A DNA stretch of 36,659 bases from Clostridia bacterium (GTDB taxonomy: Bacteria; Bacillota; Clostridia; Oscillospirales; Butyricicoccaceae), in assembly GCA_017444965.1 (NCBI GenBank), contig JAFSVO010000104.1, positions 1 through 36,659 of the forward strand, written 5' to 3'. A program made the position numbers and the translations under genes. Below the pieces are notes generated by a model that did not search any database, was not told the origin of the DNA, and saw only the letters and a list, made by a program, of their open reading frames with translations. Below, piece after piece: positions 1-29,825 of this stretch. Numbering within the stretch: position 1 is the stretch's first letter; every line of letters starts with the position of its first letter.

Positions 1-3000
1 GGGCTGTATACGCTTCCTTATTTCCGGATCATATCCGTCCTTTTTGAGCAGTTCCTCAAAGAAGCCCGTAAAGTCGTGCGGCAGGCTCGTGTCGGTGCGC
101 GTGAACACGCCGGCGCCTACTATAAGTATCGTGGGGCTGCGCCCTACGTCGCCCGTCGTGATATTGGGCTCCTTGATAGCGGGCGGGGTCGACCTGTCGA
201 CGATAAGCTTCCACCGCGCGACAAGCGTGAGCCCGCCGAAGGGCACCGTGCCCTTTTCAAAGTTAAACTCCTTAGAGTAATCGTAGCCCTCGTACCAGCC
301 CTTGAAGATATATCCCTCTTTTACGGGGTCCTCCGGCCTTTCGACCGTATCTCCCTCTTTGGCGTCTGTGGACGTTATCGGAGAGCCGTTGAGCGGGTCG
401 ATATTGACTTTAAAGGTGTCGGGCACCTTGCCCTCTTTGCCGAGAACGAACTTGGAGGCGAGCTTCTGCATGGCTATCGCGTCGTCCTTTTCGAGCTTGC
501 CCTTTACAGACGACGTTTCGTACCCGAAGTAGCCGAGGCCCGTCGGGCTCTTGTTTAAAGCCGCGGCGCATACGGCCGCCGCCGCGAGGTAGGAGCCCTT
601 GGCGCTCGCTCTGTTGCCGACGTTCGCCATCGTCTTTACGTCGTTTGCTTCGCGGTAAAGGTCGGTCTTTATCTTCGCCGTGTCGGAACTGTAGGCGAGG
701 AACAGATCCGCCAAAGATACCGTAACGACGTTCTTCGTTATCTTCTGTACCGCTTCTTTCGCCGCGGAAAGCTCGTCGTTTATCGCCGCGGTATGCGACG
801 CGTAATCGGTTATCGGCTTATCCATTGAGGCAAAATCGCCGAAGTTCGCCATATGCGGATAGGGACCTACCAGAATTACTTTTACGTTCGGGTTTTTCTC
901 ATACGCTATTTTAGCGAGCTTGGCGGCGGTGGTGATATTATACCTGCGCGTGCTCTCGGAAATTATCGAGTGGTCGCGCCCCGTCTGAAGGATAAGGTAA
1001 TCGAACCTTGTCGAATTGAAGTATCTGTAAGCCCTTTTGCCCGAGCTTAAGCTCGAGAAGGTCTCGTCGTTTATGTCCCCTCTCGCGCTCGAGGCGAACA
1101 GCTCGTAAAGGTTGAAGGTGGTGGAGGTGTCGGTATGCGAGAAGGTCGCCGAAATAAGGTTCATCGGCTTGTTTTCGGCAGCCGTCATAAGGTTTTTGAG
1201 CGTCTGGTACATATTGAAGCTGCCGAGCGAATAGCCGCCGAACATAAACACGTTCATCGCGCCCTCGACCGTTTCGTCGTCAAAATGCACCTTGACCTTC
1301 GTGCCGTCGGTAAGGGTCGGAGGAGGCGCCGTAGAGGTCTTTCCGGTATCGGGGTCTACCCACGTCGCGTCGTCGACCTCGCGCACCTTGTCGGTCTTGA
1401 TACCGAGGGCAGCTTCCGCCGCGACCGCCTGAAGCTTCATACCGTAGGACGGGAGTATCTCGTACCCCTTTTCGCACGTGAAGGCGTCAAGCCCGACGGG
1501 GCTTTCTTTGAACGTCTCGGCGAACACGCACGCCGCTGAGAGATAGCTGCCGTAAACGTCTGCGAAGTCGGTCTTGAGCGAGCCGTAGGGGGACAGAACG
1601 CCGCGGCTTATGCAAAGCTCGAACGCGCGGTTTACGTCGGCTATTCTGAAGGGGAAGGATATGACCGAGGCGACCTTGTCGAGATACTTTTCTATCGCCG
1701 CCGCGTGATCGGCGCGCCCCGTTATCTTCGCGGGAATGAAGTACTGCTTGTACATGTTCCCCTCGAGGTCCTGTCTTCCGTAGTTGCTGAAGAAGAGCAC
1801 CTGCACGTCGGGGTTGTGCTTTGACGCCGCGTCGTATATGGCGTGGATCATCTTTATTTCTTTCTGCGCGGTCGATTCGCTTAAGAGCGCGTTGTCGCGC
1901 CCGAGCATAAGGACGAGCGTGTCGTACTTATTCTCTTTGCAGAGCTTCTCGACTTCAGACGCGTTTTCACCGACGAGCCCCGTCTCCCAGATATTATAGT
2001 TATTGCCCTTGGCGAGCGTGTCGACCTTGACAGTGCGCCCGCTCTTGGCGGCTATCGCTTTAAAGAATGAGCCGGTATCGTAGCCCGAGCCGGATACGGG
2101 GCCGCTTCCCACGAAGAGAACGCTCTTTATATCGGTGTGCCATGCGCCGTAGCTTCTGCCCGAGCCCGCGGGCTTCGCCCAGCCGGCGTAAAGAGTTATA
2201 TCGGAGGGCGGCATGGTCGCCTGCATAAAGCTGAATCTGCCCGAAAGCTCGGGGTCAAAGAACCAGCCCGCGAAGATAAGCCCCTCTCTTACGGGGTCCT
2301 TGGGGGCGGGTATCTTCGCGCCCGTTTTCGCCTTTAAGGGCGCGACGGGCGTGCCGCCGTTCGTGAAGAAGGTGACGGTATGCTCGGGGTCATTGCCCTT
2401 GTAATCTTTTCCGAACGCCGTCTTATACGCCTGCTTCTGAAGCTTTAAAAGCATGGCGCCGTCGATTATCTTGCCGTTGTAACCTAAACCGGTAGATCCG
2501 TAGACCGGCATACCGACCGGGCTTTTCTTGAAGACGGAGGCGTACACCGTCGCCGCCATAAGATACGAGCCCTGCGCGTTCGCGCGGTTTATGCCGTTAT
2601 ATCTGCCCTCTCTGCCGTCGGCTTTCTGATAGAGGTCCTTTACTATAGCGTCGTCGTCGCCGTAGTTCATAAAGGCGTCGGTAACGTATACGACCTGCAC
2701 GTTTTTGGCGAAATTGCCCTTAAGTATCGCGGCTTTGGCGTCTTCCGCCTGCTTGTTTATAAGCGCCGCGTGGTCGCGCATATTCTCGGCAAGACCTACC
2801 TTTACGTCGGTAAAGGACTGCGTGTTGGGATAGGGCGTGACGAGGATTATCTTAACGTCGGGGTTCTTTTCTGAGGCTATCTTCGCTATCTTGCAGCATG
2901 AGATCACGTCCGCGTTATAGTGCTCTTCGCTCGACAGCGAATAATCCTTGCCCGTCTGCAGTATGACGTAATCGAGGCCCTTGTCCGCCGCGCTCTTGAG

Positions 3001-4791
3001 CGCGGGGCCCGCCCTTAAGGTCGAGAAGGTAAGGTCGTTTATATCGTTTCGTTCCTTAAAGAACTCGTAGAGGTTATAGGTCGTGGACGACGTATGCTCG
3101 AGCTTGACGAAGGAGGAGACGACGTCCGCCTTTTCGCCCTCTTTTATCATGTCGACGAGCGTCTGCGCCGCGTTGAAATTAGACATCGGTATAGAGCCGA
3201 AGAGGAAGAGCCGTATCTGCTTCTTATCACTGTCCTCATTTTCCGCCGGAAGCTTGGTCATGACCGTCGGCTCGGGATACTTGTATATCGGGTCGTTTTT
3301 ATAGCTTAAGTCTTTTTCAATAAAGTCTTCGTAAATGTCGACGAACCGCGTGTAGTCGGACACGTCGGGAAGAGAGGTCGTTTTAGTACCGAAGGCGACC
3401 TGCGCCGCGAGCGCCTGAAGCTTGACGCCTACCTCGGGGTCTACCGTAAACTTATCCGTCTCAAAGCACCTTATGCCGACGGGCGACTTATTGAATATCA
3501 CCGCGTACATAAGGCACGCCTGCAGATAGCTGCCCTGAACGCCCGCGAAGTCGTTGGTTTCGTCGACGTAGGGCTGTATGCCGTTCTTTTTGGCGAGTTG
3601 GAACGCGGCGTTGCTGTTGACGACGCTGTAGTCCATCGGCAGGTCGTCTTTAAGCCTGTTCCAGAATTCGTCGATAAGCTCGGAGAGCGCGTCGGGCGTC
3701 TCTACGCGCGGAACGTGCTTCCAGTATATGTCTTTATAGTAGCTGCTGTTTACGTCCTGCCTCGTGTAGGGAACGACGCAGACGACTTTAACGCAGGGAT
3801 TATACTTTTTCACCTTGTCGTAGATGGTGGTGACGGCTAACCTTTCCTTATTATAGGTCTCGTCTCTTATAAGGCAGTTGTCGCGCCCGAGTTGAAGCAC
3901 GACGTAGTCGTATTTTCTCGACTCGAACATATTGGTCACGTTTTTGTAATTCGTGCCGACGAGCCCCGTTTCCCAGATGCTGTAGTTAGAGCCGAGCACG
4001 AGCGAGTCGACGATAAGCGGCTCACCGTCGGCGCGCGCTATCCTTTGAAGGAAGGCCGCGGAGTCGTGCTCCTGCCTCGATACCGTCCTCGCGAGTATGC
4101 CGGAGCCGACGAAGAGGACGCTTAAGGGCCGCTCTTCAATAACGACTCTCGTAAGCCCCGTCTTTGCGGAAGCGCTCGCGCCCGTTATGCTTTTCGTGCC
4201 GGTGACTTCGCCGTAAACGTAGTATCTGCCGCCCTTTTTAAGCCCCGCGGGTATGGCGACGCCCGCTTCCGTCTGCCCCTCTAAAAGGGTGCCGCCGGAC
4301 GTCTCCGCCTTGTTCGTCAGATACCATTTATAGGTGTAAACGTACCCTCTGTTCTGCTTGACGGTCACTTCAAACGAGCCGCCCACTTTTTCTGAGGCGT
4401 ACGCCGTCGCGGGCTGGGTATCTATCTCGGGGGTGACCGCCTCGCCGAGCTCTATCCACGACGCCTTTAAGGTCATAGACTCGGTCACCGGCGTTCTGAA
4501 CTTATAAAGCGAGCCCGAGGGCAGGCACCATCCTTCGAAAATGAAGCCTTCGCGCGAGGGGTCGGCGGGCTGTTTTAATATCTCGCCCGCGTTTACGGTA
4601 ACCGCGTCGACGGGCGTGCCGCCGTCGCTGTCGAAGGTCACGGTGCAGACGGCCGCGTTTGTATCGGTGTCCGCGGTCTGCCCCGGCTCTTCTCCCCCGC
4701 CGGAGGGGGCGGCGTCCTTCTCGCAGGCGCAGAAGAGCGCGAGCGTAAAGCAGAGCAACAGCAGAAGCGAGATCTTTAACCACTTTTTCAT
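1..4791 (-). CDS. Giant InlB-repeat lipoprotein with SGNH-like pseudo-hydrolase modules, left cassette (C-terminus off window)
   Basis: The frame is open from the ATG at 4791 to the window edge, giving 1597 residues with the C-terminus missing. An AAGGAG ribosome binding site precedes the start. The N-terminus is a lipoprotein signal (MKKWLKISLLLLLC, then a Cys near residue 23). An InlB/Listeria-Bacteroides repeat, an Ig-like YxWYLTNK domain, and modules in the order A, B, InlB, A, B, InlB and the start of a third A follow. It is colinear with the 2044-aa protein at 12932-19066, so about 445 residues are probably missing. The modules end in a GSYL...A..Y...F.KSPVG block like DUF4886/SGNH proteins, but the GNS nucleophile motif reads GSG or GSI and the D-x-x-H block is absent. 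I infer a non-catalytic, membrane-anchored surface binding protein. It sits 89 bp behind the SLH gene and is probably co-transcribed with it. The ligand is unknown. Confidence 0.85.
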   Translation of the reverse strand, partial: MKKWLKISLLLLLCFTLALFCACEKDAAPSGGGEEPGQTADTDTNAAVCTVTFDSDGGTPVDAVTVNAGEILKQPADPSREGFIFEGWCLPSGSLYKFRTPVTESMTLKASWIELGEAVTPEIDTQPATAYASEKVGGSFEVTVKQNRGYVYTYKWYLTNKAETSGGTLLEGQTEAGVAIPAGLKKGGRYYVYGEVTGTKSITGASASAKTGLTRVVIEERPLSVLFVGSGILARTVSRQEHDSAAFLQRIARADGEPLIVDSLVLGSNYSIWETGLVGTNYKNVTNMFESRKYDYVVLQLGRDNCLIRDETYNKERLAVTTIYDKVKKYNPCVKVVCVVPYTRQDVNSSYYKDIYWKHVPRVETPDALSELIDEFWNRLKDDLPMDYSVVNSNAAFQLAKKNGIQPYVDETNDFAGVQGSYLQACLMYAVIFNKSPVGIRCFETDKFTVDPEVGVKLQALAAQVAFGTKTTSLPDVSDYTRFVDIYEDFIEKDLSYKNDPIYKYPEPTVMTKLPAENEDSDKKQIRLFLFGSIPMSNFNAAQTLVDMIKEGEKADVVSSFVKLEHTSSTTYNLYEFFKERNDINDLTFSTLRAGPALKSAADKGLDYVILQTGKDYSLSSEEHYNADVISCCKIAKIASEKNPDVKIILVTPYPNTQSFTDVKVGLAENMRDHAALINKQAEDAKAAILKGNFAKNVQVVYVTDAFMNYGDDDAIVKDLYQKADGREGRYNGINRANAQGSYLMAATVYASVFKKSPVGMPVYGSTGLGYNGKIIDGAMLLKLQKQAYKTAFGKDYKGNDPEHTVTFFTNGGTPVAPLKAKTGAKIPAPKDPVREGLIFAGWFFDPELSGRFSFMQATMPPSDITLYAGWAKPAGSGRSYGAWHTDIKSVLFVGSGPVSGSGYDTGSFFKAIAAKSGRTVKVDTLAKGNNYNIWETGLVGENASEVEKLCKENKYDTLVLMLGRDNALLSESTAQKEIKMIHAIYDAASKHNPDVQVLFFSNYGRQDLEGNMYKQYFIPAKITGRADHAAAIEKYLDKVASVISFPFRIADVNRAFELCISRGVLSPYGSLKTDFADVYGSYLSAACVFAETFKESPVGLDAFTCEKGYEILPSYGMKLQAVAAEAALGIKTDKVREVDDATWVDPDTGKTSTAPPPTLTDGTKVKVHFDDETVEGAMNVFMFGGYSLGSFNMYQTLKNLMTAAENKPMNLISATFSHTDTSTTFNLYELFASSARGDINDETFSSLSSGKRAYRYFNSTRFDYLILQTGRDHSIISESTRRYNITTAAKLAKIAYEKNPNVKVILVGPYPHMANFGDFASMDKPITDYASHTAAINDELSAAKEAVQKITKNVVTVSLADLFLAYSSDTAKIKTDLYREANDVKTMANVGNRASAKGSYLAAAAVCAAALNKSPTGLGYFGYETSSVKGKLEKDDAIAMQKLASKFVLGKEGKVPDTFKVNIDPLNGSPITSTDAKEGDTVERPEDPVKEGYIFKGWYEGYDYSKEFNFEKGTVPFGGLTLVARWKLIVDRSTPPAIKEPNITTGDVGRSPTILIVGAGVFTRTDTSLPHDFTGFFEELLKKDGYDPEIRKRIQP

Positions 4792-4835
4792 ACTCTTTTT
4801 CTCCTTATCCTTCAAGGCTTTAAGTATCGCGGGGC

Positions 4836-4870
4836 GGGCGCGGGGGAAGCGCGAGCGTCCCGGCGCGCCC
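4836..4870 (-). other. GC-rich hairpin between SLH and lipoprotein genes, left cassette
   Basis: GGGCGCG plus GGGA pairs with TCCC plus CGCGCCC, with a small bulge. It lies in the 89-bp gap between the SLH gene stop and the lipoprotein start. No T-run follows on the minus strand, so it is not a clear terminator. A different hairpin occupies the same position in the other cassette (19116-19145). It may protect a processed mRNA end or reduce read-through. Confidence 0.4.
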
Positions 4871-4880
4871 GGAGCCGCCG

Positions 4881-7800
4881 TCAGTCGAGTGCCGTCTCAG
4901 CCGCCTTCTGCAGGTCGAGCGCAAGCTCCTCAGGCGTCTGTCCGAGATAAGTTAAGATATCCGTCGTCTCTACGTCTTCGGGATTGTCAAGGCTGCCGCC
5001 CACGTCGTCGGAGCCCAAACATTCAAGCCCGACGGGGGTCTTGCCGAACATGACCGCGTACAGGGTCGCCGCCGCGAGGTAGGCGCCCGGCGCGGAAGCG
5101 CAGTTCGCGAAGTTGACGCCGAGCACGTAAGAAAGACTGTCGTGGTTTTCAAGTCTCCAGCCGAAGGGTCTGAAGAGCACGTTCGCGAGCTTAGCCTCGT
5201 CGCCGTCCGCGTACGTCTCGAACGCGTCGCCGACGTACGCTACCTTGACGGGCTCTTTAAGGTACCCGTCGGCGTCGACCGCCGCGGCTATCGCCTGAAC
5301 GCTCTTGTCTATCGCCTCTACGTGCGATTTGTGCGAGCGAACGCCGGTCATCGCCGCGAAGTCTTTTTCAAACCCCGTCGTGTGTCCGTAGGGCGCGTAG
5401 ATAACGAACCGGACGTTGGGATTTATATCGGTCGCTATCTTCACAAGCTTTCTTATGCAGTTTCTTTCGTCCTGAACTCTGTTCGATATGGTCATCGAGT
5501 AGTCTCTGCCCGCCTGGATCACAACGTAATCCCACACCGTCCCGCCGGACATAGCGTTCGAGAGCGCCGCGTTCTTTATCGTGTAATCGGTAATTGCGGT
5601 CGAATTGAACAGCTCGTAAGGATTCCACGTGTTCATCGTGCTGGTATGCGCAAGCTTTATTGAGGTCATATTGACGGGCACGTCGAGCCCCGTTTCTATC
5701 ATCTGCTTTAAGGTCTGGTCCGCAGAATATGAGCCGACCGGGTGGTTGCCCCAAATAAGAACGTTCAGCTCGCTCTTTTCAAAGCTGACGCTTATCGGCT
5801 GCGACCAGCTTTCGGCGGTGAAGGTCTTTCTATGCGCCGTTACCTTGCAGAAGTAGTAAAGGACCTTTCCGAGGTCATCCTCGCTCGCTTTTATAAACAG
5901 GGCGCTTTCGGTCGCGCCGTCTATCGCGGCGGCGTTGCTTTCCGTCGCGCTGTCACCGACGTACCACTGATACTCGTAAGTGTGTCCGGGCTGTTCGGCG
6001 ACCGTCACGAAAAGCGTCTCGCCGAGCGTCGCGTATTTTACCGTCGCCGACTGTGACTGATCCTTGAAGACGGGCGCTATCGCTTCGTCCGCGAGCCTGT
6101 TGTACCAGAACTTAAATACCGTGTCGCCCGCGGGGGATATAACGTCGGTCGCGACTCTGCCGGCGTTTTCGGCGTCTTCATAATAGTCCTCTATCATCGA
6201 GGGCTGAACCGTCGTTTCCTTTCCGGCGTAGCCCGTAAGGGTATCCGTTCTTAAAAGCTCGTACCCCGTCTTGTCGCTGTTCTGTATATAATGCTCGACC
6301 TTATACTGAGCCTTCGCGGGCTCGGTACCGAGCGCGGTTTTCTGCGCCGCCGCCTGAAGGTCGAAGACAAGGCCCGCCGGCGTGTCGCCGAGTATTTCGG
6401 CAAGAGCGGATGCGCGCGCGTTCGTTAATACGTCCGAATTGTCCGCCGCGACGCCGGTCACGGTAAGCCCGACGGGAGATTCCGAAAGAGCCGTCGCGAA
6501 CACGGTCGCCGCCGTAAGATAGGCGCCCGCCGCCGACGCGCGGTTGGCGAGGTTTTTGCCGTAGCAGGGCGTAGTCGTGCTGACTAACGCAGGCTCCTGA
6601 TAAAGCAGCTCTTTTACCTTGTCGTTTCCGCCTGCGAAATCGGCGAAGGCCGAGCTTACGTAAGCTATTTTCACCCCGTTTTCAAGGTAGGCGTCCGCTT
6701 CTATCTCGCTCTTGTTATCCTCCGCCTCGGAGTTTATCCACGCGACGTGCGAGGCGAAATCCTTTACGCTGCCCGACGTGAAGTCGGCGGCGAAGTTTAC
6801 GGTATGCGCGTACGGCGCGACGAGAATAAACTGAACGTCGGGGTTGCGGTCGGAGGCAAGTTTTGCGAGCTTGCGCAGCGCGTAGCTGTTCTTGAGCTTG
6901 GCGTCGGCGCTTGTCGCCGCCGAGTCGCGGTTTGTCTGTATAATTGCGTAGTCGAGGTCTACCGTCTCAAACGCCTTTTTGGTGTTGGCGTTTGAAAGGG
7001 TGTAGTTTGTAAGTGACGTCCTCGCGCTTGATTCGAACATTTCAAACACGTTATACGTGTTATACGTTGCCGTGTGCGCCGCGCTGACCTGGATAAGGTT
7101 TACCGTGACCCCGAGCTTTTCCTCGAGCATCGCCTTTAAGGTGTCGACCGCGTGATGGACGCCTGCCGGATACCCGCCGAAGGAGTAGATATTGAGAGTA
7201 TCCTTCTTATAGGTCGCCGCGGCTACGGTCGACGTCGCCGTCTTGACGTCGCCCTTGCGCTTTGCCGTGACGGTCGCGAAATAGTATTCGGTGGTATCAA
7301 GGTTTCCCTCGTCCGCCTTTATCCTATAGACGGGGCCCGTCGCGCCCTCTATCGCCTCGGCGCCGTCCGCGCTTGCCTGCGTGTTCTTATACCACTGATA
7401 GGTATAGGTGTTGCCGGGCATTTCGTCTATTTCTACCCTTAAGCTCTTGCCGGGCGTCGCGTATTTGACGGTGACCGCGGGCGCGAGGTCCTTTTCAAAT
7501 TCGGGAAGGGTCGCTTCATCCGGAAGCTTGTCGTAATAGAATCTGAACACGGTAGAGCCGTCGGCTTCTATCTCGGCAGAGCTTACCCTGTCGGGGTGCT
7601 TTTTATTTTCGGCGTAGTCTTCTATCTCTATGCCGGTATGAGTCCTCGCGACTCCGGCGAACGCCTGCTTTATTTCTTCCTTATACAGGTCGTAGCCCGT
7701 CTTGTCGGCGTTCTGCCTGTAATACTCTATTTTATACGACGCTCTTTCGGCGTCGGTGCCGAAGGTTATCTTCTGCGCCGTCGCCTGAAGCTCGAACTTA

Positions 7801-10334: not shown

Positions 10335-10371
10335 ACAATACTACCTCCGTTCGGGTAACGTAAGCTTTTTC

Positions 10372-10387
10372 CGCCGCGCCCGCGGCG
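10372..10387 (-). other. Short hairpin between solute-binding and SLH genes, left cassette
   Basis: CGCCGCG and CGCGGCG form a 7-bp stem with a two-base centre in the 76-bp gap. On the minus strand it is followed by GGAAAAAG rather than a T-run, so it should not terminate. No promoter is visible in this gap, so the SLH gene is probably read from the solute-binding gene promoter. Confidence 0.3.
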
Positions 10388-10410
10388 TTTATTGCGCGCT
10401 ATCTTAAATA

Positions 10411-12931: not shown

Positions 12932-15900
12932 TTAATCCGCGAACATGCTTTCCGCGACGCCTTTCAGTATCTTGGCGTTATCGGCGTTCGCGCCGGCGAG
13001 GTAGGTTATCTCGTCGGGCATCGCGCCGAACATGGCGTTATAGAGCATGCACGCCGCAAGGTAAGAGCCGTCTTCCGACAGATAGTCGGACACCGAGTTG
13101 GCGTAGGGGCTTATGCCGCAGTCGAGCGCGGCATCCGCCGCCGCGGACAGGTCGCACAAGACGTAGCCCTTTTCGGCGAGCTTCGCTGTATAGGCGCTTA
13201 TGCGCTTCGCGTAGTCGCTGACCGACGCAACGCCGTTCTTTCTGACCTGGTCCTTATAGAGCTGGCCGTCGGCGTTCTGCCTCGCTACCGGTGAGACGAG
13301 GACTATCTTGACGTCCTTATTGTTCTCTTTTCCGAGCGCGGCGAGCTTTTCTATTGCGGCAAGCTCAGCATCCTTTGCTTTTTCGTCGTAAAGCACGGCG
13401 TCGCGCCCGACCTCGAGGACTATGTAGTCGTAGGTTTCGCCGCCGTAGCTGAACTCTACGTTGACCGCGGTGCTGTCGGCAAACTCGGCGAGGCTGTCGG
13501 AGCCCGTAAGGCTCTTGAACTCGTAGCCCTTCCTGAGCTGGCCGAGGAAGGAGCCGACCGTTTCGGGCACGCTGTTGTCGTTTATCATACGGCTGCCTAT
13601 ATACAGCACGTTAGCCGTCTTTCTGTCGACGTAGGTGTCGGATATCTCTATCTCGGGCACGTCGGTCTGCTTTAAGACTATATGGGCTACCGCGCGCTGT
13701 ATGGCGACGCCCTTCGTCGGCTCGACCGACTTTTTATCGGCGGTAAACCTCAGAAGTCCGACAGGCGACTTGCCCGTGATGCCGGCGTAGATGCCGCAGG
13801 CGAGCGCGTAGTCGCCGTATCTGCCCGCCTGGTCGCCCCAGGTGGTGTTGTACCAGGGATTTATGCCCTCAGTCTTGAGCAGGTACTCAAACGTGCTGTT
13901 CATGTCGACGACCGCCGGCTTATACTTGAGCGCCGGGAGTATCGTCTTGTTCATGCGGTCGTTTATCGCGTAAGAGTGCTCTTCGCGGTTGGTAACGTCT
14001 ATCTGCGCGAAGTTCCTGTAATAAGAGGTGGAAAGATCCTGGCGCGCGTGAGGCACGACGTACACGAACTTGGTATTGGGATTGTAGGAGAGCGCAAGCT
14101 CTGTTATGCCGTTGACCGCCTTCGCTTCCGAGCTTGCCGTGCTGTCGGATATAAGCGCGTAGTCGCGCGTGCCCTGGAAGACGACGGCGTCTACCTTGCC
14201 GTCGGCAACGAGCGGCTCTATCTCGCTGTAATTTTCGCCGACAAGCCCGTTTTCAAAGAGGTTGTAGTTGACGGGGCGCAGGCGCGTCCTTATCGTCGGG
14301 TTATAGCCCGCTTTGTCGAACAGCTCGGCGAGGAAGCCGGTGCAGTCGTGCGGCGCCGTGGAGTCGGTACGGATGAATATGCCCGCGCCTATGATAAGAA
14401 TCGTGGGACTGCGGCCTATGCCGCCCTCGGTTATATTGGTCTTTTCTATTTCGGGCGGTTTGGAGGTGTCGACTATAAGCTTCCACTTGGCGACGACCGT
14501 CATTCCGCCGAAGGGCACCGTATCATTTTCAAAGTCGACGAGCTTGGAGTATTCGTAATCGACGTACCAGCCCTTGAAGATATAACCCTCTCTTACGGGG
14601 TCCTCGGGCTTTTCGAGAAGGTCGCCCTCTTTGGCGTTCTTGATAACGATCGGCGTGCCGTTGACCGCGTCTATCGTCACGGTGAAGGTGTCGGGCACCT
14701 TGCCCTCGTTGCCTAAGACGAACTTGGACGCCAGCTTCTGCATGGCGATAGCGTCGTCCTTTTCGAGTTTGCCCTTGACGGAGGAGGTCTCGTACCCGAA
14801 GTAGCCGAGGCCCGTCGGGCTCTTGCCCGTAGCCGCCGCGTAGCACGCCGCCGCGCAGAGATACGCGCCCTTGGCGTTGGCGCGGTTGCCCGTGTTGGCG
14901 CGGGTGTTGACGTCATTCGCCTCGCGGTAGAGGTCGGCTCTTATCTTCGCGGGGTCGGAGCTGTAGGTATAGAAGAGGTCGCCCAAGGATACCGTGACAA
15001 CGTTCTTCGTTATCTTAAGGACTTCTTCCTTCGCCTGCGCAAGCTCTTCGTTTATCGCCGCGACGTGCGCTTTGTTGTCCTTTATCGGGACGTCCATATT
15101 CGCGAAGTCGTTGAACTCAGCCATATGTCCGTAAGGTCCTACGAGGATTATCTTGACCTTCGGGTTCTGCTCGACCGCGAGTCTCGCGATCTTGACGGCG
15201 GAGTAAACGTTCTGTCTGCGGTTGCTCTGGTAAGCGAGCGAGAAGTCGCGCCCCGTCTGGATGAACACGTAATCGAACTTTGTCGAATGAAGCTTTCTGT
15301 AAGACTTCTGAGCGCCGGAGCCGGTGGCGAAGGTGTCGTCGTTTATATCCGACCTGCCGGACGAGGCGAACAGCTCGTAAATGTTATAGGTGGTCGAGCC
15401 CTCGCCGTGGCCGAGCGCGCAGGAAACGAGGTTCATCGGCTTCTTTTCGGCGGTGGTCATAAGATTCTTTAAGGTCGTCGTCATGTTGTAGCTGCCGAAG
15501 GTAAAGCCGCCGAACATATAGACGTTGAGCGCCCCTTCGACCGTTTCGTCGTCAAAGTGCATCTTGACCTTGGTGCCGTCGGCAAGCGTCGGAGGCGACG
15601 CGGGCGAGGTCTTTCCGGTGTCCGGATCGACCCACTTCATATCGTCGACCTCGCGGATGTTTTCCGTCTTTATGCCGAGTATGGCTTCCGCCGCTATCGC
15701 CTGAAGCTTCATGCCGTAGGACGGGAGCACGGCGTAGCCGTTGTCGGTCGTGAACGCGTCAAGACCTACGGGGTTCTCTTTAAACGCCTCGGCGAAGACG
15801 CAGGCGCCCGAGAGGAAGCTTCCGTAAACGTCCTGATAATCGTTTTTAAGCGAGCCGTAAGGAGATATGACGCCCCGGCTTATGCAGAGTTCAAAAGCGC

Positions 15901-18900
15901 GGTTGACGTCTACGACCCTGAACGGGAAGGAGATGTAGAACGCCACCTTGTCGATATACTTTTCTATCGCCGCCGCGTGTTCCTCGCGGTTGGTGATGTT
16001 TATCGGCAGGAAGTAATTCTTATAGTAGCTGCTTTCGGTGTCCTGTCTGCCGTAGTTGCTGAAGAAGAGCACCTGCACGTCGGGGTTGTGCTTCGACGCG
16101 ACCTCGTAAATGGTCTGTATCATCTTAAGCTCTGCCTGGAAGGTGCTTTCGTTCTTTACGACGCTGTCGCGCCCGAGCATGAGGACGAGCGTGTCGACGT
16201 TATTGTCCTTGCAGAGCTTCTCGACCTTTTCGGCGCCCTCGCCGACAAGGCCGGTCTCCCAGATATTATAGTTCGCGCCCTGCGCGAGAGTGTTGACCTT
16301 GATATCGCGCCCGCTCTTGGCGGCTATCGCCTTGAAGAAGGAGCCGGTATCTTGACCCGTTCTCGACATAGGTCCGGACCCTACGAAGAGAACGCTCTTT
16401 ATATCGTTATGCCATTCGCCGTAGCTTCTGCCCGAGCCCGCGGGCTTTGCCCAGCCGGCGTAAAGAGTTATGTCGCAGGGCGGCATGGTCGACTGCATAA
16501 AGCTGAATCTGCCCGTAAGGCCGGGATCGTAGAACCAGCCGGCGAACTCGAAGTCGCGGAAGGTCGGGTCGGCGGGGGCTTTTACCTTCGCGCCCGTCTT
16601 CGCCTTTATCGGGGCTATTTCGGGGCCGCCGTTCGTGAAGAAGGTTATCGTATGCTCGGGATCCGCGCCCTTGTATTCCTTGCCGAAGGCGTTCTTATAG
16701 GCGAGCTTCTGCAGCTCTAAGAGCTTTGCGCCGTCTATTATCTTGCCGTTATAGCCGATGCCCGTCGAGCCGTAAACGGGAAGGCCTATCGGGCTTGCCT
16801 TGAAGATAGAGGCGTAGACCGTCGCCGCCATAAGATAGGAGCCTTGCGCGCTCGCGCGGTTGGCGGTGTTGGCTCTGCCCGAAACGCCGTTCGACTTCTG
16901 ATAAAGGTCGGCCTTTATCGCGGCTTCGTCGCCGTAACTCATAAATGCGTCGGAAACGTAGACTATCTGCACGTTCTTGGCGTATTTGCCCTTTAAGATG
17001 GCGTCTTTCACGTCTTCCGCCTCTTTGTTTATCGCGGCGGCGTGCTCGGCCATATTGGTGACGTCGAGCAGCTTTATGTCGGCGTACGTGCTGGTGTGCG
17101 GATAGGGCGCGACGAGGATTATCTTGACCTCGGGGTTATTCTCGGATACTATCTTCGCCGCCTTGCAGTAGGAAACGATGCTCGAGCGGTAATACTCGTC
17201 GGAGTTGTAGGAGATGTCTCTGCCCGTCTGGAGTATTACGTAATCAAGCCCCTTATCGGCCGCTTTCTTGAGGTTCGGGCCCGATTGCAGAGTGGAGAAG
17301 GTCATATTGTTTATATCGGTGCGCGACTTTGAGTCGAAGAACTCGAAGAGGTTGAAGGTGGTCGCGCCGCTCGTGTGAGCGAGGTCGATGACCGTCGAAG
17401 AGACGTTCACGTTCTGACCCGCTTTGATAAAGTCGATTATCGTCTGCGCCGTGTTGAAGGTACCCATCGGGAAGCCGCCGAAAATAGCGACCCTTATCTG
17501 CTCTTTTTCCGCTGTATCGGCGCTTGCGGGGAGTTTGGTCGTGACGGTCGGCGTGGGATACTTGTAGATCGGGTCGTTTTTATAGTCTAAGTTCACGTCG
17601 ATAAAGTCTTCGTAAATATCGACGAACTTAGTGTATTCGGAAACGTCGGGAAGCTTTGACGTTTTTATGCCCAAAGCCTGCTGCGCCGCCAGCGCCTGCA
17701 GCTTTACGCCCGTCTGAGGCGTTACCGAAAGAGTTTCGGTATCGAAGCACTGTATGCCGACGGGCGATTTTCCGAATATCGCCGCGTACATAAGGCACGC
17801 CTGCAGGTAGCTTCCGTCTACGCCCGCGAAGTCGTTCTTTTCGTTTACCCACGGCTGGAAGCCCTGCTTTAAAGCCGCTTCAAACGCCTTGTTGCTGTCG
17901 ACTACCGAATACTCGAAGGAGAACATATCCTTGATCTCGTTCCAGTATTTGTCTATCGCGGCGGATACCTCGGCTCTGTTCGTCGCCTTGGGATCGAGCT
18001 TGTTGTAGACCTCTTTATAATACTTGCTCGTGTCGTCCTGCCTCGCGTAAGGAACGAGGCATACCATCTTTACGTTGGGGTTGTATTCTCTCGCCTTGTC
18101 GTAAATGTTGTTCGCGGCGAGCTTTTCGTTGTTCATGACGCTCTGGCTGTTAAGGCAGTAGTCGCGCCCTAACTGTACCACGACGTAGTCGAAGACTCTC
18201 TGGTCGAACTTGTCGGTTATGTTTTTGTAGTTTGCGCCGACAAGGCCGGTTTCCCAGATATTATAGTTAGAGCCTAAGGCGACCGATTCGACTACGACCG
18301 CTTTGCCCGCCGCGCGCGCGAGGCGCTGAAGGAACGCCGCCGAGTCGTGCTGCTCGCCGCTCGTCGTCCTTATAACGACGCCCGAGCCGACGACCAAAAC
18401 GCTTATCGGCCTGTCGCGAAGCTCTATTTTAGTAAGGCCCGTTAAAGCGCTCGCGTGCACGCCGGTCGCGCTCCTCGTGCCCGTTACCTCGCCGTAAACG
18501 TAGTAGCGGTTGCCCTTTTTAAGGCCCGCCGGTATGGCGACCGAGTTGCTGTCCTGCCCCTCTAAAAGGGTGCCGCCCGAGGTCTGCGGCTTGTTCGTCA
18601 AATACCACTTAAAGGTATACACGTAACCTCTGGTCTGTTTTACCGAAACCTTGAAGGTGCCGCCCATATCCTCCGAGGCGTAAGCCGTTTCGGGCTGTTC
18701 CTCTATTTCGGGAACGACCGCCTCGCCTATCTCTATCCACGCGGCCTTTAAGGTCATCGATTCTTTGACTATGCTTTTAAAGTTGAATACCGCGCCGTTG
18801 GGAAGCATCCAGCCGTCGAATATATACCCCTCTTTGACGGGGTCCGCCGGCTGCTCTATTTTCCCGCCGACGTCGCAGGTGACGGGCGGTATCTCGGTGC

Positions 18901-19066: not shown

Positions 19067-19115
19067 AAGCTTATTCTCCTTATCTTTTTTAAGGCTTTTC
19101 AGAAATAACGGTCTT

Positions 19116-19145
19116 GCCGGAAGAGGGCTTAACGCCCTCTCCGGC
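19116..19145 (-). other. Hairpin between SLH and lipoprotein genes, right cassette
   Basis: GCCGG-A-AGAGGGC pairs with GCCCTCT-CCGGC around a TTAAC loop, giving 12 pairs with one bulged A. Only a weak T-rich stretch follows on the minus strand. It sits where 4836-4870 sits in the left cassette, with unrelated stem sequence. It may be a leaky terminator or an mRNA-stability stem. Confidence 0.45.
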
Positions 19146-19156
19146 GCGGCCTTTCA

Positions 19157-22100
19157 TCAGTTCAGTGCGGTTTCTGCTGCCGCGGTCTGCAGGGCGAGCG
19201 CAAGCTGTTCGGGGGTCTGCCCGAGGTATTCGAGGATCGCCGCGGTCTCGGGATTGTCGGTCGTATCGAGCGCCGAATGCACCGACTCGCCCTCATAGCC
19301 GAGGGAGGTGAGACCGACGGGGGTCTCGCCGAACATCGTGGCGAATATGGTCGCCGCCGCGAGATACGCGCCGGGCGCCGAGCAGCGGTTCGCGAGGTTG
19401 GTGCCGCGGACGTAGGAGTTGTTTTCGTTGCCCGCCTGCCTCCATTCGTAAGGACGGAAGAGGACGGTCGAAAGCTTTGTGGCGTCGCCGTTCGCGTACT
19501 TTTCAAACGCGTCGCCTATATAAGCTATCTTGACGGGGGTCTTGAGGTAACCGTCAGCGTCGACCTTCGCCGCGACGGCTTTCGCCCTCTTGTCTATCTC
19601 GGCGACGTGAGTCGCGTGGGAGGATACGCCCGGAAGCGACGCGAAGTCTTTTTCAAAGCCCGTGGTATGTCCGTAAGGCGCCGCTATAATAAACTGTACG
19701 TTGGGATTTAAGTCGGAGGCGAGCTTGGCGACCTTCCTCATGCAGTTGTCTTCGTTCGTCGCGCTCGTAGCGGATGTGAGCGAGAAGTCTCTGCAGCCCA
19801 TGAATATTACGTAATCCCACGGCGTCGAGCCGGTAAGCGCGCTTGATATCGTCGAGTTCTTTATCGTGTAATCCGTAAGAGAAGTCGAATTGAAGAGCTC
19901 CCATACGTTCCAGGTCGTGTAGGTGGTCGTGTGCTCAAGACCGCTGTAGGTCAGGTTCACGTCGGTCTCAAGGTACTCTCCTATAAGCTGCCTTAAGGTC
20001 GGCGCGACGTTGTAGGAGGAAAGCGGGAAGCCGCACCAGAGGAATACGTTGAGCGGGCTCTTTTCAAAGCTTACGCTTATTGCCTGCGTCCACGTATCCG
20101 CCGTAAAGGTCTTTCTGTGCGCCGTGACCTTGCAGAAGTAGGTCTTTACGCTGCCGATATTGTCGTTCGTCGCCTTAAGGTCGACGGAAGATCCTGTCGC
20201 GCCTTCTATCGCTTCGGCGTTCGCGGCGTTTTCATCGTCGCCCGCGTACCACTGATAGGTGTAGGTGTGTCCCGGCTGCTCCTCTACCTCTACGGCGAGC
20301 GTTTCGCCGAGGGTCGCGTATTTGACCGTGACGCTTGACGGGGGCACCTTCTTGAACGCGGGGGCTGCCGCCTCGTCCGCGAGCCTATTGTAGTAAAGCT
20401 TGAAGGTCGTCTGTCCGTCCGCCGTGACGACCGCGGAAGCTACGCGGCCGGCGTTCGCGGTATCCTCGAAGTAATCCTCGAACATAGAGGCCTTCGCGGT
20501 CACCTCTTTGCCTATATAGCCCTCGAGCGTGTCGGTCCTCGCGAGGTCGTAGCCCGTCTTGTCCTCTTTCTGCAGGTAATGCTCGACCTTGAAGGCGGCT
20601 TTTTCGGGCTCGGTGCCGAGGACGGTCTTTTCGGCCGTCTTCTGAAGCTCGAACACAAGTCCGTTCACCGTCTCGCCCAGAAGATCAGCAAGCTCGGCTG
20701 CGCGCGAGTTGGCGGACAGATCCGCGTCGTTATTGGAAGAGCCCTTCGTTTCAAGCCCCACGGGCGACTCTTCGCAAACCGTCGCGAATATAGTCGCCGC
20801 CGCAAGATACGCGCCCGCCGCGGAGGCGCGGTTCGCGAGGTTTCTGCCGTAGGTGGGGGTCGTCGTGCTGATTATCTCGGGCGCCTGATAAAGCAGGGCC
20901 CTTGCGCCGGCGTCGCCGTCGGCGAAGCTCGCGAGAGCGTTGCTGACGTATGCTATCCTGACGTCGTTTTCAAGGTATCCGTCCGCTTCTATCTCGGCCT
21001 TGTTGCCCTCCGCCTCGGCGTTGATCCACGAAACGTGCGAATTGTAATCCATGACCTGCGTCGCGTTCGGGAAGTCGGAAGCGTAACCCGTGGTATGCGC
21101 ATAAGGCGCGACCAGTACGAACTGGGCGTCGGGGTTCCTCGCCGCGGCGAGCTTTGCGAGTTTGCGCAGCGAGTAGCTGTTCTGTACTTTATTCGTGCCG
21201 CTCTGCGAGGTCTCGCGGCTCGTCTGTATGATAACGTAATCGAGGTCGGTATTATTGAACGCGTCGTTCGTTTTGGTATTGCTTATGCTGAAGTCTGTGA
21301 GCGACGCCCTCGCGGTGCTCGAGAAGGTCTCGAAGAGATTGTACGTGCCCCAGGTCTGGCTGTGTCCGGTAGTTACGGTCACGTCGTTTATCTCAAGCCC
21401 CGTCTTCTCGGCGAGCATTTCAACGAGGGTGTAGCTCGTGCTGTAGGTGCCCATCGTGTAGCCGCCGAAGATATAGACGTTGAGCGGCTCTTTGGCGTAC
21501 GTTACGGAGGCGGCTGCCGAAGCCGTCTTCTTGGCGTCGTTCTTGCGGTGCGCCGTGACTTCGACGTAATAGTATTCGGTGGTATCGATATTCGCGTCGG
21601 TCGCGACGACCCTGTAAGTCTCGCTCACGGCGCCCTCTATCGCGACGCCTCCGGAATTTGATGCCGTCGTGTTTTTGAACCACTGATAGGTGTAAGTATT
21701 GCCGGGCGCTTCCTCGACCGCGACTCTTAAGGTCTTGCCGGGCGTCGCGTACTTGACGGTAACGTCCGAAATATCCTTCGTAAGGACAGGAGAAGTCGCC
21801 TCGTCTGAAAGTCTGTCGTAGTAGAACTTGAAGGTGGTCGAGCCGTTCGCCTCTATCTCGGCGCTGTCGACCCTTTCGGGATGCTCTTTATTTTCGAGGT
21901 AATCCTCTATCTCTATTGCTTTGCCCGTCTTTATGACGCCCGGGAACGCCTTGCCCGTTTCGGTCTTGTAAAGATCGTAGCCCGTCTTCGCGGCGTTCTG
22001 CGTATAATGCTCGGTCTTGTAGGTCGCTCTTTCGGGCTCGGTGCCGAGGACCGTCTTCTGAGCCGCCGCCTGCAGCTCGAGCTTGAGCTCAAGCGCGCCC

Positions 22101-25100
22101 ATGCCGAGCGCCGCCAAAGCGCTCGCCGTCTCTTCGTTGGTATCGCTCGTGAGCATACCGTCGTGGAGGTCGGAACCCTCTGTCTCAAGTCCGAAGGGGC
22201 TTTCGCCCGTTATCTGCGCGTACAGCGCCGCCGCGGTCAGATAGGCGCCCGCCGCGTTGCCGCGGTTCGCGAAGTTGTATCCGCGCACCGTGTTGTTCTG
22301 CGTGATCCCGTTGTCGGGGCGGTAAAGCGCGCTGACCTTGGATAAGTCGCCGCCCGTGAAGGTATTGAAGGCGTCGGTCACGTAGCAGATCTGCGCGGTC
22401 TTCGTAAGATATCCGTCTCTGTTCAAAGCCGCGGCTTCGGCTTCCGCCTCGATATTGATGGCTAAGCAGTGGGTCGCGTAATCCTCGATCCCCTTCTGCT
22501 TCGTCGGGAAGTCAGTTGAGAAGCCTACGGTGTGCGCGTAAGGCGCGAGTATGATGAACTGCGCGTCGGGATTTACCTCGGCGCACGTTCTCGCCAGGTT
22601 GCGAAGCAGGTTATCTATGTTCGTTTTGGAGGTGGAGTTTGTGAAAACGTTTTCTTTGCCAGACTGGATGATTATGAAGTCGGTGCCCTCTTCAAACGCC
22701 TTCTTCGTATTCTGTCCGTCGCTGCCGGTCGCGAAGACGACGTCCGCGGGGACAGACTGCGTGCCGGAGTTGACTATCTCGTTTAAGTTGTACGTGCCCC
22801 AGCCCGCCGTATGCGACGGAGAGACCGACGTTATCCTGTAATCCTCACCCGTTTCGGCGAGCATCTGCCTGAGGATATCCGACGCATCGTAAGATCCTAC
22901 GGTATAGCCGCCGAAGACGTAAACGTTTATGTAATTCGAGAAGGTGACCTCGGCGACGTTGGATATCGCCTCGGCGGAGGAATCGTTAAAGGTCGCCTTT
23001 ATCGTGCAGAAGTAGCTCTTCTTGACGCCCTCATCCGTCCTCGGCGCGATATAGGTCTTTTCGGTCGCGCCCTCTATAAGGACCGCCTCGCCGTTATCCT
23101 CGTACCACTGGTACTCGTAGGTATGCCCCTTCTGCTCTTCGATCTCGACGGTAAGACGCGCGCCCTTGGAAAGCTTGCGCTCGTCGACGCTTCTGGGCTG
23201 AGTGATTATTTCGGGGGTAAGCACCTTATTCGTGTAATAGAGCTTGAACGCGGTAGAGCCGTCGGCGGCGATGACCTGCGTCGCGACTCTTTCGGGCTTG
23301 TTCACGTCTTCGATATAGCCCGCTATATCCTTGCCCGTGACCGTCTTTTCCATGCCTATGAAAGCGGTGCCCTTTTCGTCCTTAGAAGGATCGTGGACGA
23401 ATTCGTCCGAATCGTCGATAAGGTAATACTGTACCGTGTATTCGGCTTTCTCGGCTTCCTGCTGTGAGAGCGTCTTCTGCGCCGCGGCGAGAAGCTCGAA
23501 CTTAAGTCCGTTCGCCGTCTCGTTCGCCGCCGCGAGGACCGCCGCCGTTTCGTCGTTCGCCGTGCTGTCAAGATTCGCGTTATTCGTAGTCGTGCCCATC
23601 GTATTCATTCCCGCCGGAGAGTCGCCGAAAAGCGTCCCGTACATGACCGCGGCGGAAAGGTACGCGCCCGCGGCGGAAGCGCGGTTCGCCGTGTTGTATC
23701 CGCGTATGCCGCCTGTGGAGTAATAGCCGTTATCCGGTCTGAAAAGGACCTTAGCCATCTTGTCGTAGTCGCCCTTTGCGTAGTTTTCAAAGGCGTTGCC
23801 TACGTAAGCTATTTTGACCTTGTTGTTTAACACTCCCTCGTCGTTTATCTTCGACGCGGCAAGCTCGGCCTCAAGATTCGCGAGCGAGACCTGCGCGCGG
23901 TGAGTGCTTATGCCCGCGCGCGAGAAGTCGACGTCAAAGCCCATCGTGTGTCCGTACGGGGCGACTATGACGACCTGCGCGTCGGGGTTGAGCTTCGCCG
24001 CCATAAGGGCTATCTTGACCGTCGAGTAAACGTTCTGAGTTCTGTTCGACGCCCAGTTGAGGGAGAAATCTCTGCCCGTCTGGATGATAACGTAATCGAA
24101 TGGGGTCTCCTTCAGCATCGTTTCAACGTTCGAGTTCGAGAAGGAGTAGTTGTTCATGCTCGACCTCGCGGTCGAAACGAAAAGCTCCCACACGTTGTAG
24201 GTGCTGCTCGTCGAGGTGTGCGAGGTGTAGGTGCCCTTCGGGACCATGCGCACGCCCGTTCTCTCTTTGAACATTTCGCAGACCGTGTCTATCGCGCTGT
24301 AAGAGCCTATCGTGAAGCCGCCGAAGACGAAAGCGTTCACGTAGCTTTCCGCCTTGGTCGCGTAGGTAACTTTTACTATATCGGAGTAAGTCGTAAGACT
24401 GCCGAGGCCGCGCGCCGCGGTAACGCCGCAGTACCAGTATTCCGTCTTGCCGATAAGCTCTTCGTCGGGCTTGACCTTGTACTGCGCGGTCCTCGCGTCT
24501 TTGACCGCCGCCGCGCCGTCGTAAGACTCTTCGGTGTTCTTATACCACTGGTAGCTGTAGCTGTTGTTCTCCTTTTCCTCGGCTTTGACCGTAAGGAACT
24601 CGCCGCTCGTCATGAACCTTACGTTGACGCCCGCGGGCTGCTCGGTTATGACCGGCTGAGTGGGGTTGCCCGAGGTCTCGACGGGCTTTGAGATGACGGC
24701 GCCGCCGCCGCCGCCCGTGACGACCGCGCCGCTCTGCGCCTCGGTCTTGCCGACCGTAACGCCGGTGGAGTAGGCGCCCGCGGTGACCTGCGTCGACGGG
24801 GTGTTGACGGCTATGTTGCTGCCGTTCGCGGCGACCTGCGCTACCGCGCCGCCGCCCGATACGGTTATATCGTCGCCGTCGGCTATAACGCTTCCGACCT
24901 CGCCGCCTATCGGTACGTTGACGCTCGTGTTGGAAGTGCCGTCGTTTACGGCGATAGTCTTGACTTCGCCGTTGACGGTGACGGCAGTGCCGCTGCCCTC
25001 AACGCCGACCGCCTCAATTTTGCCCTGCTTGTCGACCGTGACCGCGCCGCCTGCGACCGTCGCGCTTTCGACCTTGCCGGCTATGTTTGCAACGGCCTTC

Positions 25101-26059
25101 GGGTCGCGGCTGACGAATGAGGTAACGCGGCTTTTCTCGCCTAACTGCGCGTAAGCTCCGTTAGCCGTCGGGGCTATAACGAAGCTGTCGGCGGACCCGT
25201 TCATATATACCGACGCGTTCGAGTTTACCGAAACCGCGCCGGAGATCTCGCCGTCTATCGTAACGTTGGCTTTTTTCGCCGTTTCGGCGACTACCACGTT
25301 GCCTTTAAGCGAATTTGCCTTTATGCTTACCTTCTGCGAGGTCTTGACGACCGTTATGCCCTCGCCCGAAAGGGTGTATTCGCCGCCTTCGGTTATGTAG
25401 TCTTTAATAAGGCGGTCGATAATAGTCACTATCTCGCCGCGGGTTATATTGGCTTTCGCGTTTATGTTGCCCGAGGCGTCGCCTTTTATAACGCCGCGCT
25501 CTATCATGGCGCCGACGTATCCCTTCGCCCACGCGGCGACGTCTTCCTTGCCCGAAAGCTTAGACGCCTTTAAAGCGCTTTCGTTCTGCGCCATCGCCGA
25601 AGCTCGCCCGAGCATGACGAGGAATTCCTGCCTCGTGATGCTGTCGTTCGGGCGGATCTTGCCCGCGCCGTCGCCCTTCATTATATCCTTCGCATTAAGA
25701 CTGAAAAGATAGGGGATATACCACGAGCCGCGCACGACGTCCTTAAACGCGCCGTAAAAATCCGCGGTCGCGGTGACGCTCTCGTCAAAGCCGAGCGCAA
25801 GCGTTATTATCTTCGCGACCTGCGCGCGGGTGGCGTTGTTGCGCCCGAGGAATTTCCCCGCGCCGTCGCCCGAAATAACGCCGAGGCTCGCCCATCTTTT
25901 TGCCGCCGCCTCGTAATACGTGCCGGCAACGTCGGAAAACTCGACGCCCGACGCGGCGGGAGCCGCTGTCACCGTCATTTCGCCCGCGGCAAATACGTTC
26001 GGCATGACCGAAAGTATCATCGCAAGCGCTATGGCAAGCGAAATAATGCGTTTCTTCAT
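19157..26059 (-). CDS. Giant SLH-anchored surface protein with four SGNH-like pseudo-hydrolase modules, right cassette
   Basis: The protein has 2300 aa from the ATG at 26059, chosen because GGAGGT lies seven bases upstream and the signal peptide begins there; an in-frame ATG at 26086 would add nine residues before it. After the signal (1-25) are three SLH domains (about 38-92, 98-151 and 160-217), a Gly/Val-rich probable beta-solenoid (230-465), then four repeats of Ig-like domain plus B module (B at 572-822, 1042-1295, 1525-1775 and 2003-2255). MucBP-like repeats with YxVxYY/HY start (about 873, 1347, 1823) join them. B modules keep H-x7-N-x2-E, x-[RK]-[DE] and PYxHT but no SGNH catalytic Ser or His. 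SLH anchoring to the wall is established for the family; a binding or scaffold role is inferred. Its own promoter (26154-26182) and a terminator before it suggest expression separate from the solute-binding gene. Confidence 0.9.
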   Translation of the reverse strand: MKKRIISLAIALAMILSVMPNVFAAGEMTVTAAPAASGVEFSDVAGTYYEAAAKRWASLGVISGDGAGKFLGRNNATRAQVAKIITLALGFDESVTATADFYGAFKDVVRGSWYIPYLFSLNAKDIMKGDGAGKIRPNDSITRQEFLVMLGRASAMAQNESALKASKLSGKEDVAAWAKGYVGAMIERGVIKGDASGNINAKANITRGEIVTIIDRLIKDYITEGGEYTLSGEGITVVKTSQKVSIKANSLKGNVVVAETAKKANVTIDGEISGAVSVNSNASVYMNGSADSFVIAPTANGAYAQLGEKSRVTSFVSRDPKAVANIAGKVESATVAGGAVTVDKQGKIEAVGVEGSGTAVTVNGEVKTIAVNDGTSNTSVNVPIGGEVGSVIADGDDITVSGGGAVAQVAANGSNIAVNTPSTQVTAGAYSTGVTVGKTEAQSGAVVTGGGGGAVISKPVETSGNPTQPVITEQPAGVNVRFMTSGEFLTVKAEEKENNSYSYQWYKNTEESYDGAAAVKDARTAQYKVKPDEELIGKTEYWYCGVTAARGLGSLTTYSDIVKVTYATKAESYVNAFVFGGFTIGSYSAIDTVCEMFKERTGVRMVPKGTYTSHTSTSSTYNVWELFVSTARSSMNNYSFSNSNVETMLKETPFDYVIIQTGRDFSLNWASNRTQNVYSTVKIALMAAKLNPDAQVVIVAPYGHTMGFDVDFSRAGISTHRAQVSLANLEAELAASKINDEGVLNNKVKIAYVGNAFENYAKGDYDKMAKVLFRPDNGYYSTGGIRGYNTANRASAAGAYLSAAVMYGTLFGDSPAGMNTMGTTTNNANLDSTANDETAAVLAAANETANGLKFELLAAAQKTLSQQEAEKAEYTVQYYLIDDSDEFVHDPSKDEKGTAFIGMEKTVTGKDIAGYIEDVNKPERVATQVIAADGSTAFKLYYTNKVLTPEIITQPRSVDERKLSKGARLTVEIEEQKGHTYEYQWYEDNGEAVLIEGATEKTYIAPRTDEGVKKSYFCTIKATFNDSSAEAISNVAEVTFSNYINVYVFGGYTVGSYDASDILRQMLAETGEDYRITSVSPSHTAGWGTYNLNEIVNSGTQSVPADVVFATGSDGQNTKKAFEEGTDFIIIQSGKENVFTNSTSKTNIDNLLRNLARTCAEVNPDAQFIILAPYAHTVGFSTDFPTKQKGIEDYATHCLAINIEAEAEAAALNRDGYLTKTAQICYVTDAFNTFTGGDLSKVSALYRPDNGITQNNTVRGYNFANRGNAAGAYLTAAALYAQITGESPFGLETEGSDLHDGMLTSDTNEETASALAALGMGALELKLELQAAAQKTVLGTEPERATYKTEHYTQNAAKTGYDLYKTETGKAFPGVIKTGKAIEIEDYLENKEHPERVDSAEIEANGSTTFKFYYDRLSDEATSPVLTKDISDVTVKYATPGKTLRVAVEEAPGNTYTYQWFKNTTASNSGGVAIEGAVSETYRVVATDANIDTTEYYYVEVTAHRKNDAKKTASAAASVTYAKEPLNVYIFGGYTMGTYSTSYTLVEMLAEKTGLEINDVTVTTGHSQTWGTYNLFETFSSTARASLTDFSISNTKTNDAFNNTDLDYVIIQTSRETSQSGTNKVQNSYSLRKLAKLAAARNPDAQFVLVAPYAHTTGYASDFPNATQVMDYNSHVSWINAEAEGNKAEIEADGYLENDVRIAYVSNALASFADGDAGARALLYQAPEIISTTTPTYGRNLANRASAAGAYLAAATIFATVCEESPVGLETKGSSNNDADLSANSRAAELADLLGETVNGLVFELQKTAEKTVLGTEPEKAAFKVEHYLQKEDKTGYDLARTDTLEGYIGKEVTAKASMFEDYFEDTANAGRVASAVVTADGQTTFKLYYNRLADEAAAPAFKKVPPSSVTVKYATLGETLAVEVEEQPGHTYTYQWYAGDDENAANAEAIEGATGSSVDLKATNDNIGSVKTYFCKVTAHRKTFTADTWTQAISVSFEKSPLNVFLWCGFPLSSYNVAPTLRQLIGEYLETDVNLTYSGLEHTTTYTTWNVWELFNSTSLTDYTIKNSTISSALTGSTPWDYVIFMGCRDFSLTSATSATNEDNCMRKVAKLASDLNPNVQFIIAAPYGHTTGFEKDFASLPGVSSHATHVAEIDKRAKAVAAKVDADGYLKTPVKIAYIGDAFEKYANGDATKLSTVLFRPYEWRQAGNENNSYVRGTNLANRCSAPGAYLAAATIFATMFGETPVGLTSLGYEGESVHSALDTTDNPETAAILEYLGQTPEQLALALQTAAAETALN

Positions 26060-29824: not shown

Positions 29825-29825
29825 A

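Follow-up and report, generated by a model that had tools for sequence, protein, structure and literature searches.

What do the long repeat proteins of this locus do, and what has become of the hydrolase fold that their repeated modules recall? The window (the whole stretch of DNA analyzed, 36,659 nucleotides) is contig 3 of a 1.96-Mb assembly of 297 contigs (completeness, 78.65%) and carries module arrays in four long minus-strand proteins, P0001, P0002, P0003, and P0004. We consider it rather probable that each module is a DUF4886-like domain of SGNH fold, deprived of its esterase triad and retained for noncatalytic binding of cell wall or glycan.

In positions 1 to 28111, a cassette of three genes is duplicated in tandem; it is transcribed in the order SBP_bac_5 lipoprotein, SLH array, and lipoprotein array, and paired proteins share 50 to 68% identity (Table 1). 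Three SLH domains were found in each of P0001 and P0003, both with signal-like N termini; for P0001, the Met at 26059, the start implied by the first-pass annotation, was the best one. P0002 and P0004 gave no SLH match, having instead lipoprotein-like signals and Listeria-Bacteroides (Flg_new) repeats, and by sequence they look like lipoproteins, so that the SLH anchor at first assigned to the arrays applies to P0001 and P0003 and not to the other two. A sister genome has the same order of SBP gene, SLH array, and lipoprotein array, followed by a protein with a module and an NlpC/P60 domain. Upstream of its SBP gene are four M20-type peptidase- or amidohydrolase-like frames (L094:918-6165, recognized only by eye), with which peptide scavenging would be consistent. 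Scans of the window for Rfam families and tRNAs gave no match, and positions 28320 to 36659 carry unrelated genes on the minus strand (TIM-like, cytochrome b561-like, FMN reductase, HD domain, two flavodoxins, and aldo/keto reductase), with a 208-aa frame (29100 to 29726, minus strand) lacking any Pfam match at an E value of 0.001.

TABLE 1 Proteins, SLH domains, and modules of the window
Feature	Position	Strand	Description	Basis
P0006	26300..28111	-	SBP_bac_5 oligopeptide-binding-type lipoprotein, gene 1 of cassette 1 (P0006-P0001-P0002)	PF00496 E 3.5e-51; gene order shared with sister species
P0001	19157..26059	-	Signal peptide, 3 SLH domains, beta-rich stretch, Ig-like domains, 4 type A modules	Translation; SLH E 1.1e-26; Ig_3 over cut-off
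P0001 three SLH domains	25433..25942	-		PF00395 matches
P0001 module 1	23462..24346	-	Type A (FGGF ... NTANRASAAGAYL)	
P0001 module 2	22043..22936	-	Type A (FGGY ... NFANRGNAAGAYL)	
P0001 module 3	20615..21484	-	Type A (FGGY ... NLANRASAAGAYL)	
P0001 module 4	19160..20053	-	Type A (WCGF ... NLANRCSAPGAYL)	
P0002	12932..19066	-	Lipoprotein-like signal (LALAFAYAC), Listeria-Bacteroides repeats, 6 modules B-A-B-A-B-B	Translation; Flg_new E 2e-40
P0002 module 1	17660..18412	-	Type B (VGSG)	AlphaFold model m936010dc9d81; best match DUF4886 4i8i, Z 21.9
P0002 module 2	16673..17500	-	Type A (FGGF)	
P0002 module 3	15665..16405	-	Type B (VGSG)	
P0002 module 4	14705..15529	-	Type A (FGGF)	AlphaFold model m5cd41d67fab8; SGNH 4s1p, Z 19.9; DUF4886 4i8i, Z 18.8
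P0002 module 5	13661..14410	-	Type B (IGAG)	
P0002 module 6	12935..13618	-	Type B, short (IGSR)	
P0005	10411..12219	-	SBP_bac_5 lipoprotein, gene 1 of cassette 2 (P0005-P0003-P0004); 54% identity to P0006	
P0003	4881..10334	-	P0001 paralogue (50% identity), signal peptide, 3 SLH domains, 3 type A modules	
P0003 three SLH domains	9729..10235	-		PF00395 matches
P0003 module 1	7752..8642	-	Type A (FGGH)	
P0003 module 2	6324..7199	-	Type A (FGGY)	
P0003 module 3	4884..5768	-	Type A (WGNH; NFANC)	
P0004	1..4791	-	P0002 paralogue (68% identity), lipoprotein-like, modules B-A-B-A plus fragment, cut by contig end	
P0004 module 1	3379..4128	-	Type B	
P0004 module 2	2401..3219	-	Type A (FGSI)	
P0004 module 3	1393..2133	-	Type B	
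P0004 module 4	433..1257	-	Type A	
P0004 module 5	1..138	-	Fragment (VGAG), cut by contig end	

The profile of the modules, whose alignment includes those of the window, recovered 18 of 18, namely, 17 full modules (four in P0001, six in P0002, three in P0003, and four in P0004) and a 46-aa fragment in P0004, matching the first-pass count of 13 full modules in three complete proteins and four plus a partial one in the fourth. Module length, given there as 220 to 250 aa, is actually 228 to 298 aa: 273 to 298 aa in type A (n = 11) and 228 to 251 aa in type B (n = 6 full modules). All modules of P0001 and P0003 are type A, and the types are mixed in P0002 and P0004. The usual type A motifs are FGG[FY] (block I), H...T-[YFW]-N-x-x-E (block II), Q-T-G-R-D (block III), P-Y-x-H (following strand 4), and N-x-x-N-R-x-x-A-x-G-[AS]-Y (block V); at the corresponding places, type B usually has VGSG, N-Y-N-x-W-E, G-R-D, R-Q, and D-[FYQ]-x-x-x-x-G-[SD]-[YF]. 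Block I varies (FGGF, FGGY, FGGH, WCGF, WGNH, and FGSI in type A; VGSG, IGAG, and IGSR in type B), the N-x-x-N-R of block V is present in 10 of the 11 window type A modules (N-C in P0003 module 3), and the type B form of block V is present in 6 of 6 full modules. Types A, B, and C across the genus were sorted by motif, 35 modules being clear fits to A or B; a few A-like and B-like modules remain in type C, and the window modules are unaffected by this.

Confident AlphaFold models were obtained for two modules, one of each window type. The type A model (P0002 module 4; pLDDT, 90.9; pTM, 0.91) best matched a putative SGNH hydrolase (4s1p, over 182 residues) and then the crystal structure of a DUF4886 protein (4i8i, over 227 residues), with other SGNH or GDSL proteins lower, at Z near 15. 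The type B model (P0002 module 1; pLDDT, 89.9; pTM, 0.90) best matched 4i8i (224 residues, 2.6 Å), which covers nearly the whole module in both models. Structure prediction was the proposed check for an unrelated fold; SGNH proteins were the top matches for both models, and the SGNH/DUF4886 likeness first seen by eye stands. By hhalign, types A, B, and C match one another with 99.9 to 100% probability (A versus B, 99.9%) and match canonical DUF4886 sequences with 94.3% (A), 96.9% (B), and 98.0% (C) probability. Judged from these profiles, the module repeat family and its link to DUF4886 are far beyond chance; the models place types A and B in the SGNH superfamily by predicted fold, and models and profiles together support a relationship of both types to DUF4886.

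DUF4886 (PF16227, SGNH clan CL0264), itself without known function (PMC9487903), matches the predicted fold of the modules over nearly its full length, C-terminal helices included, and has in common with them a block with G-x-Y-L-x-A and SPxG close to the C terminus. Unlike it, the window modules lack the catalytic Ser and the DxxH, carry Arg/Lys-Asp at block III where DUF4886 reads mostly LQQxS, and stand in arrays with anchors. At the curated Pfam cut-off for DUF4886 (26.7 bits), hmmscan listed no window protein (best window score, 21.2 bits), and an orthologous array protein of the sister genome passes with 47.4 bits. Pfam and NCBIfam scans gave only weak Lipase_GDSL_2 matches, with P0004 as a whole protein just over that cut-off. 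Annotation pipelines miss the modules because those of the window fall under the DUF4886 cut-off and are at best marginal generic GDSL matches. A PDB sequence search with the module profile gave no meaningful match; matches came from fold comparison alone.

At block I, type A aligns with canonical DUF4886 without gaps (LNVYMFGGF versus MDILSIGNS), so the nucleophile position can be read directly. It is occupied by F, Y, H, Q, I, M, or C in the 20 clear type A modules (Ser in 0/20); Gly takes this place in 13 of the 15 clear type B modules, and Leu or Asn does so in the others. The nucleophilic Ser is absent from all 17 full window modules and all 35 clear A and B modules of the genus, in keeping with the earlier reading of VGSG, FGGF, FGGY, and IGAG as replacements. 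A displaced Ser (GS in FGGFTxGSY) was rejected as a candidate, its position varying among S, T, V, and N. At block V, a His at -5 or -6 from the conserved Gly (two possible registers) was found in 0/35 clear A and B modules and 0/17 window modules. The final Asp-x-x-His had been described as replaced by NR-type or D-x-x-G sequences: no window module and no clear A or B module keeps the His, and the NR-type replacement holds for type A, but D-x-x-G fits only half of type B and was dropped as a general motif, the remainder reading D-x-x-D or D-x-x-S. The DUF4886 controls (canonical homologues from four genomes of the genus and one other genus of the family) were intact at G-[NS]-S and D-x-x-H in 8 of 8 full-length homologues, with DxxH in 9 of 9. 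The loss of the canonical Ser and His from the window modules is real.

Other residues are conserved in the modules. In type A, block V has N(-6) and N(-9) in 20/20 and R(-5) in 19/20, and in type B, it has D(-6) in 15/15. Block III carries Arg or Lys in 35/35 type A and B modules, 46/49 type C modules, and none of the DUF4886 controls; the Asn oxyanion residue is absent from types A and B, with Arg or Lys in the region instead, and the controls also lack GxND there, reading mostly LQQxS. Such conserved Arg, Asp, His, and Asn residues could serve different chemistry. Active-site strand-end loops make up 24% of type A positions and hold 15 of its 31 near-invariant residues (P about 0.001 with hand-picked loop windows; a rank test over all positions was weaker, with P of 0.02 to 0.03). 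This concentration would not be needed by a mere spacer, and it weighs against the modules being an SGNH scaffold for a stalk or S-layer-like coat that holds no ligand. We regard that reading as unlikely, even though the alternation of arrayed modules with Ig-like or Listeria-Bacteroides repeats recalls stalk proteins and SLH anchors are common in the genome (48 SLH matches genome-wide); the single modules in NlpC/P60 proteins also make a spacer role less natural.

Slightly more doubtful still is that the modules remain enzymes, with a rebuilt site (for example, the type A RD pair with His41, His135, and Asp141) and a different reaction or substrate. A near-invariant new polar set in place of the old triad would suit such a site, and SGNH relatives with altered oxyanion holes exist, such as PatB1 with an Arg (PMC9487903). 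However, no Ser, Thr, or Cys is conserved at the nucleophile position, and block V differs, with N-x-x-N-R in type A versus D in type B; because the two types conserve different residues there, one shared new mechanism is unlikely. That the modules, having lost their catalytic residues, are simply decayed and functionless is highly improbable and already disfavored by the selection signal: comparison of the paralogous proteins, module by matching module, gave dN/dS values of 0.21 to 0.36, so the module genes are maintained, under purifying selection. The frames are also long and intact, and the orthologous locus is kept in the sister species.

Type C (n = 49) includes intermediates, with Ser in 19 modules, His in 6, and both in 4. 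Because these four keep Ser and His, some members of the wider family may still be active, and such modules are possibly active or intermediate forms. Type C modules with Ser and the block V His, without an Asp three residues earlier, are encoded at L058:1636-4911, L060:9487-15243, L073:3686-6124, and L082:3276-6521.

Family counts rest on genome profile searches and fetched contigs. The source genome, which is incomplete, has at least 63 module matches; its fetched contigs hold 64 modules in 45 reading frames, some cut by contig ends, that span 133.5 kb (6.8% of the assembly). Two other members of the genus gave 13 and 20 matches, and one gave none. No module match was found in 83 genomes of other genera of the same family or, with a type A-led profile, in 397 further genomes drawn across the phylum; a scan of genome contigs found one other MAG only (RGIG2138, from goat colon), and a scan of viral contigs found no relative. 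Among the several hundred genomes searched, the module family appears to be restricted to the genus. A tree (made by a quick method, with some open forks) separates the modules from DUF4886 and sets types A and B largely apart; matching module positions of P0002 and P0004 and of P0001 and P0003 pair in it, the pattern expected if whole genes were duplicated.

By prediction, most type C proteins are lipoproteins in which a single module accompanies an NlpC/P60 domain and, in many cases, DUF11; nearly all of the sequences listed retain the catalytic Cys and His of NlpC/P60. Fusions to NlpC/P60 also occur for the other two types, in three type A proteins on contig 66 and in type B proteins in G002, and the domain is therefore a partner common to all three. 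Signal-like N termini are present on almost every complete module protein. Other contigs of the source genome (L052 to L068) encode dozens of predicted lipoproteins that combine one pseudo-SGNH module with NlpC/P60, and such genes often lie in tandem; contig 70, for example, has seven module frames.

Binding by noncatalytic modules, the reading that we prefer, is what we infer from this pattern: each module would hold a cell wall or surface-glycan ligand in its remodeled active-site pocket. Two facts make such a ligand the most likely: NlpC/P60, the usual fusion partner, is a cell wall peptidase, and polysaccharide is known to bind at the SGNH active site of CtCE2. In most proteins of the family, all outside the window, a single module would target or regulate the NlpC/P60 peptidase that it adjoins. 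The window arrays, held by SLH domains (P0001 and P0003) or a lipid anchor (P0002 and P0004), would provide multivalent attachment, with peptidoglycan or some other polymer of the envelope, or else a polysaccharide of host or plant origin, as candidate targets; the link to the cell wall reaches these four proteins through their relatives only, because they are themselves without NlpC/P60. The gene for an oligopeptide-binding-family lipoprotein just upstream of each array pair would fit capture of material freed from cell walls. More tentatively, the whole may be a genus-specific recognition system, in which more than 60 copies of a dead SGNH-esterase fold serve as cell wall or glycan binders with diversified pockets (A, B, and C), singly to direct secreted NlpC/P60 peptidases and in surface arrays.

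NlpC/P60 hydrolases with separate cell wall-binding modules, such as SH3 or LysM, are known, and most family members outside the window likewise join a secreted peptidase to an accessory module; unlike in those systems, the accessory here is an SGNH-fold domain and not a known cell wall-binding fold. Noncatalytic use of the SGNH fold already has precedents in CtCE2 and OSK. The active site of CtCE2, a CE2 SGNH esterase of Clostridium thermocellum, binds cellulose noncatalytically (PMC2661963); it resembles the proposed arrangement in that an SGNH active site binds polysaccharide and helps a neighboring hydrolase, and it differs in being a single domain that keeps the Ser-His dyad and esterase activity. 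The RNA-binding OSK domain of Oskar belongs to the SGNH clan (PMC9487903) and was recruited to binding rather than hydrolysis, as the window modules presumably were; OSK, however, is part of an animal germ line protein, binds RNA, and forms no secreted array. In the open-access literature, no title was found that describes an SGNH domain with SLH or with NlpC/P60. What appears to be new is the scale, the restriction to one genus, the display of arrays on SLH or lipid anchors, and the combination with NlpC/P60. If the binding reading is right, the modules would be a large natural set of an esterase active site turned binding site, with graded forms within one genus (intact DUF4886, Ser and His kept, Ser only, and neither); they would add a cell wall- or glycan-binding fold overlooked by annotation pipelines and explain the use of about 7% of the assembled genome in a gut bacterium.

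The source genome also encodes canonical DUF4886 proteins in which GNS and DxxH are intact (L001:1501-2202 and L002:574-1311), and every member of the genus searched has at least one. Contigs 79 and 160 have nearly identical ends (L058:1-1548 and L063:1-1554), perhaps strain variants or a collapsed repeat.
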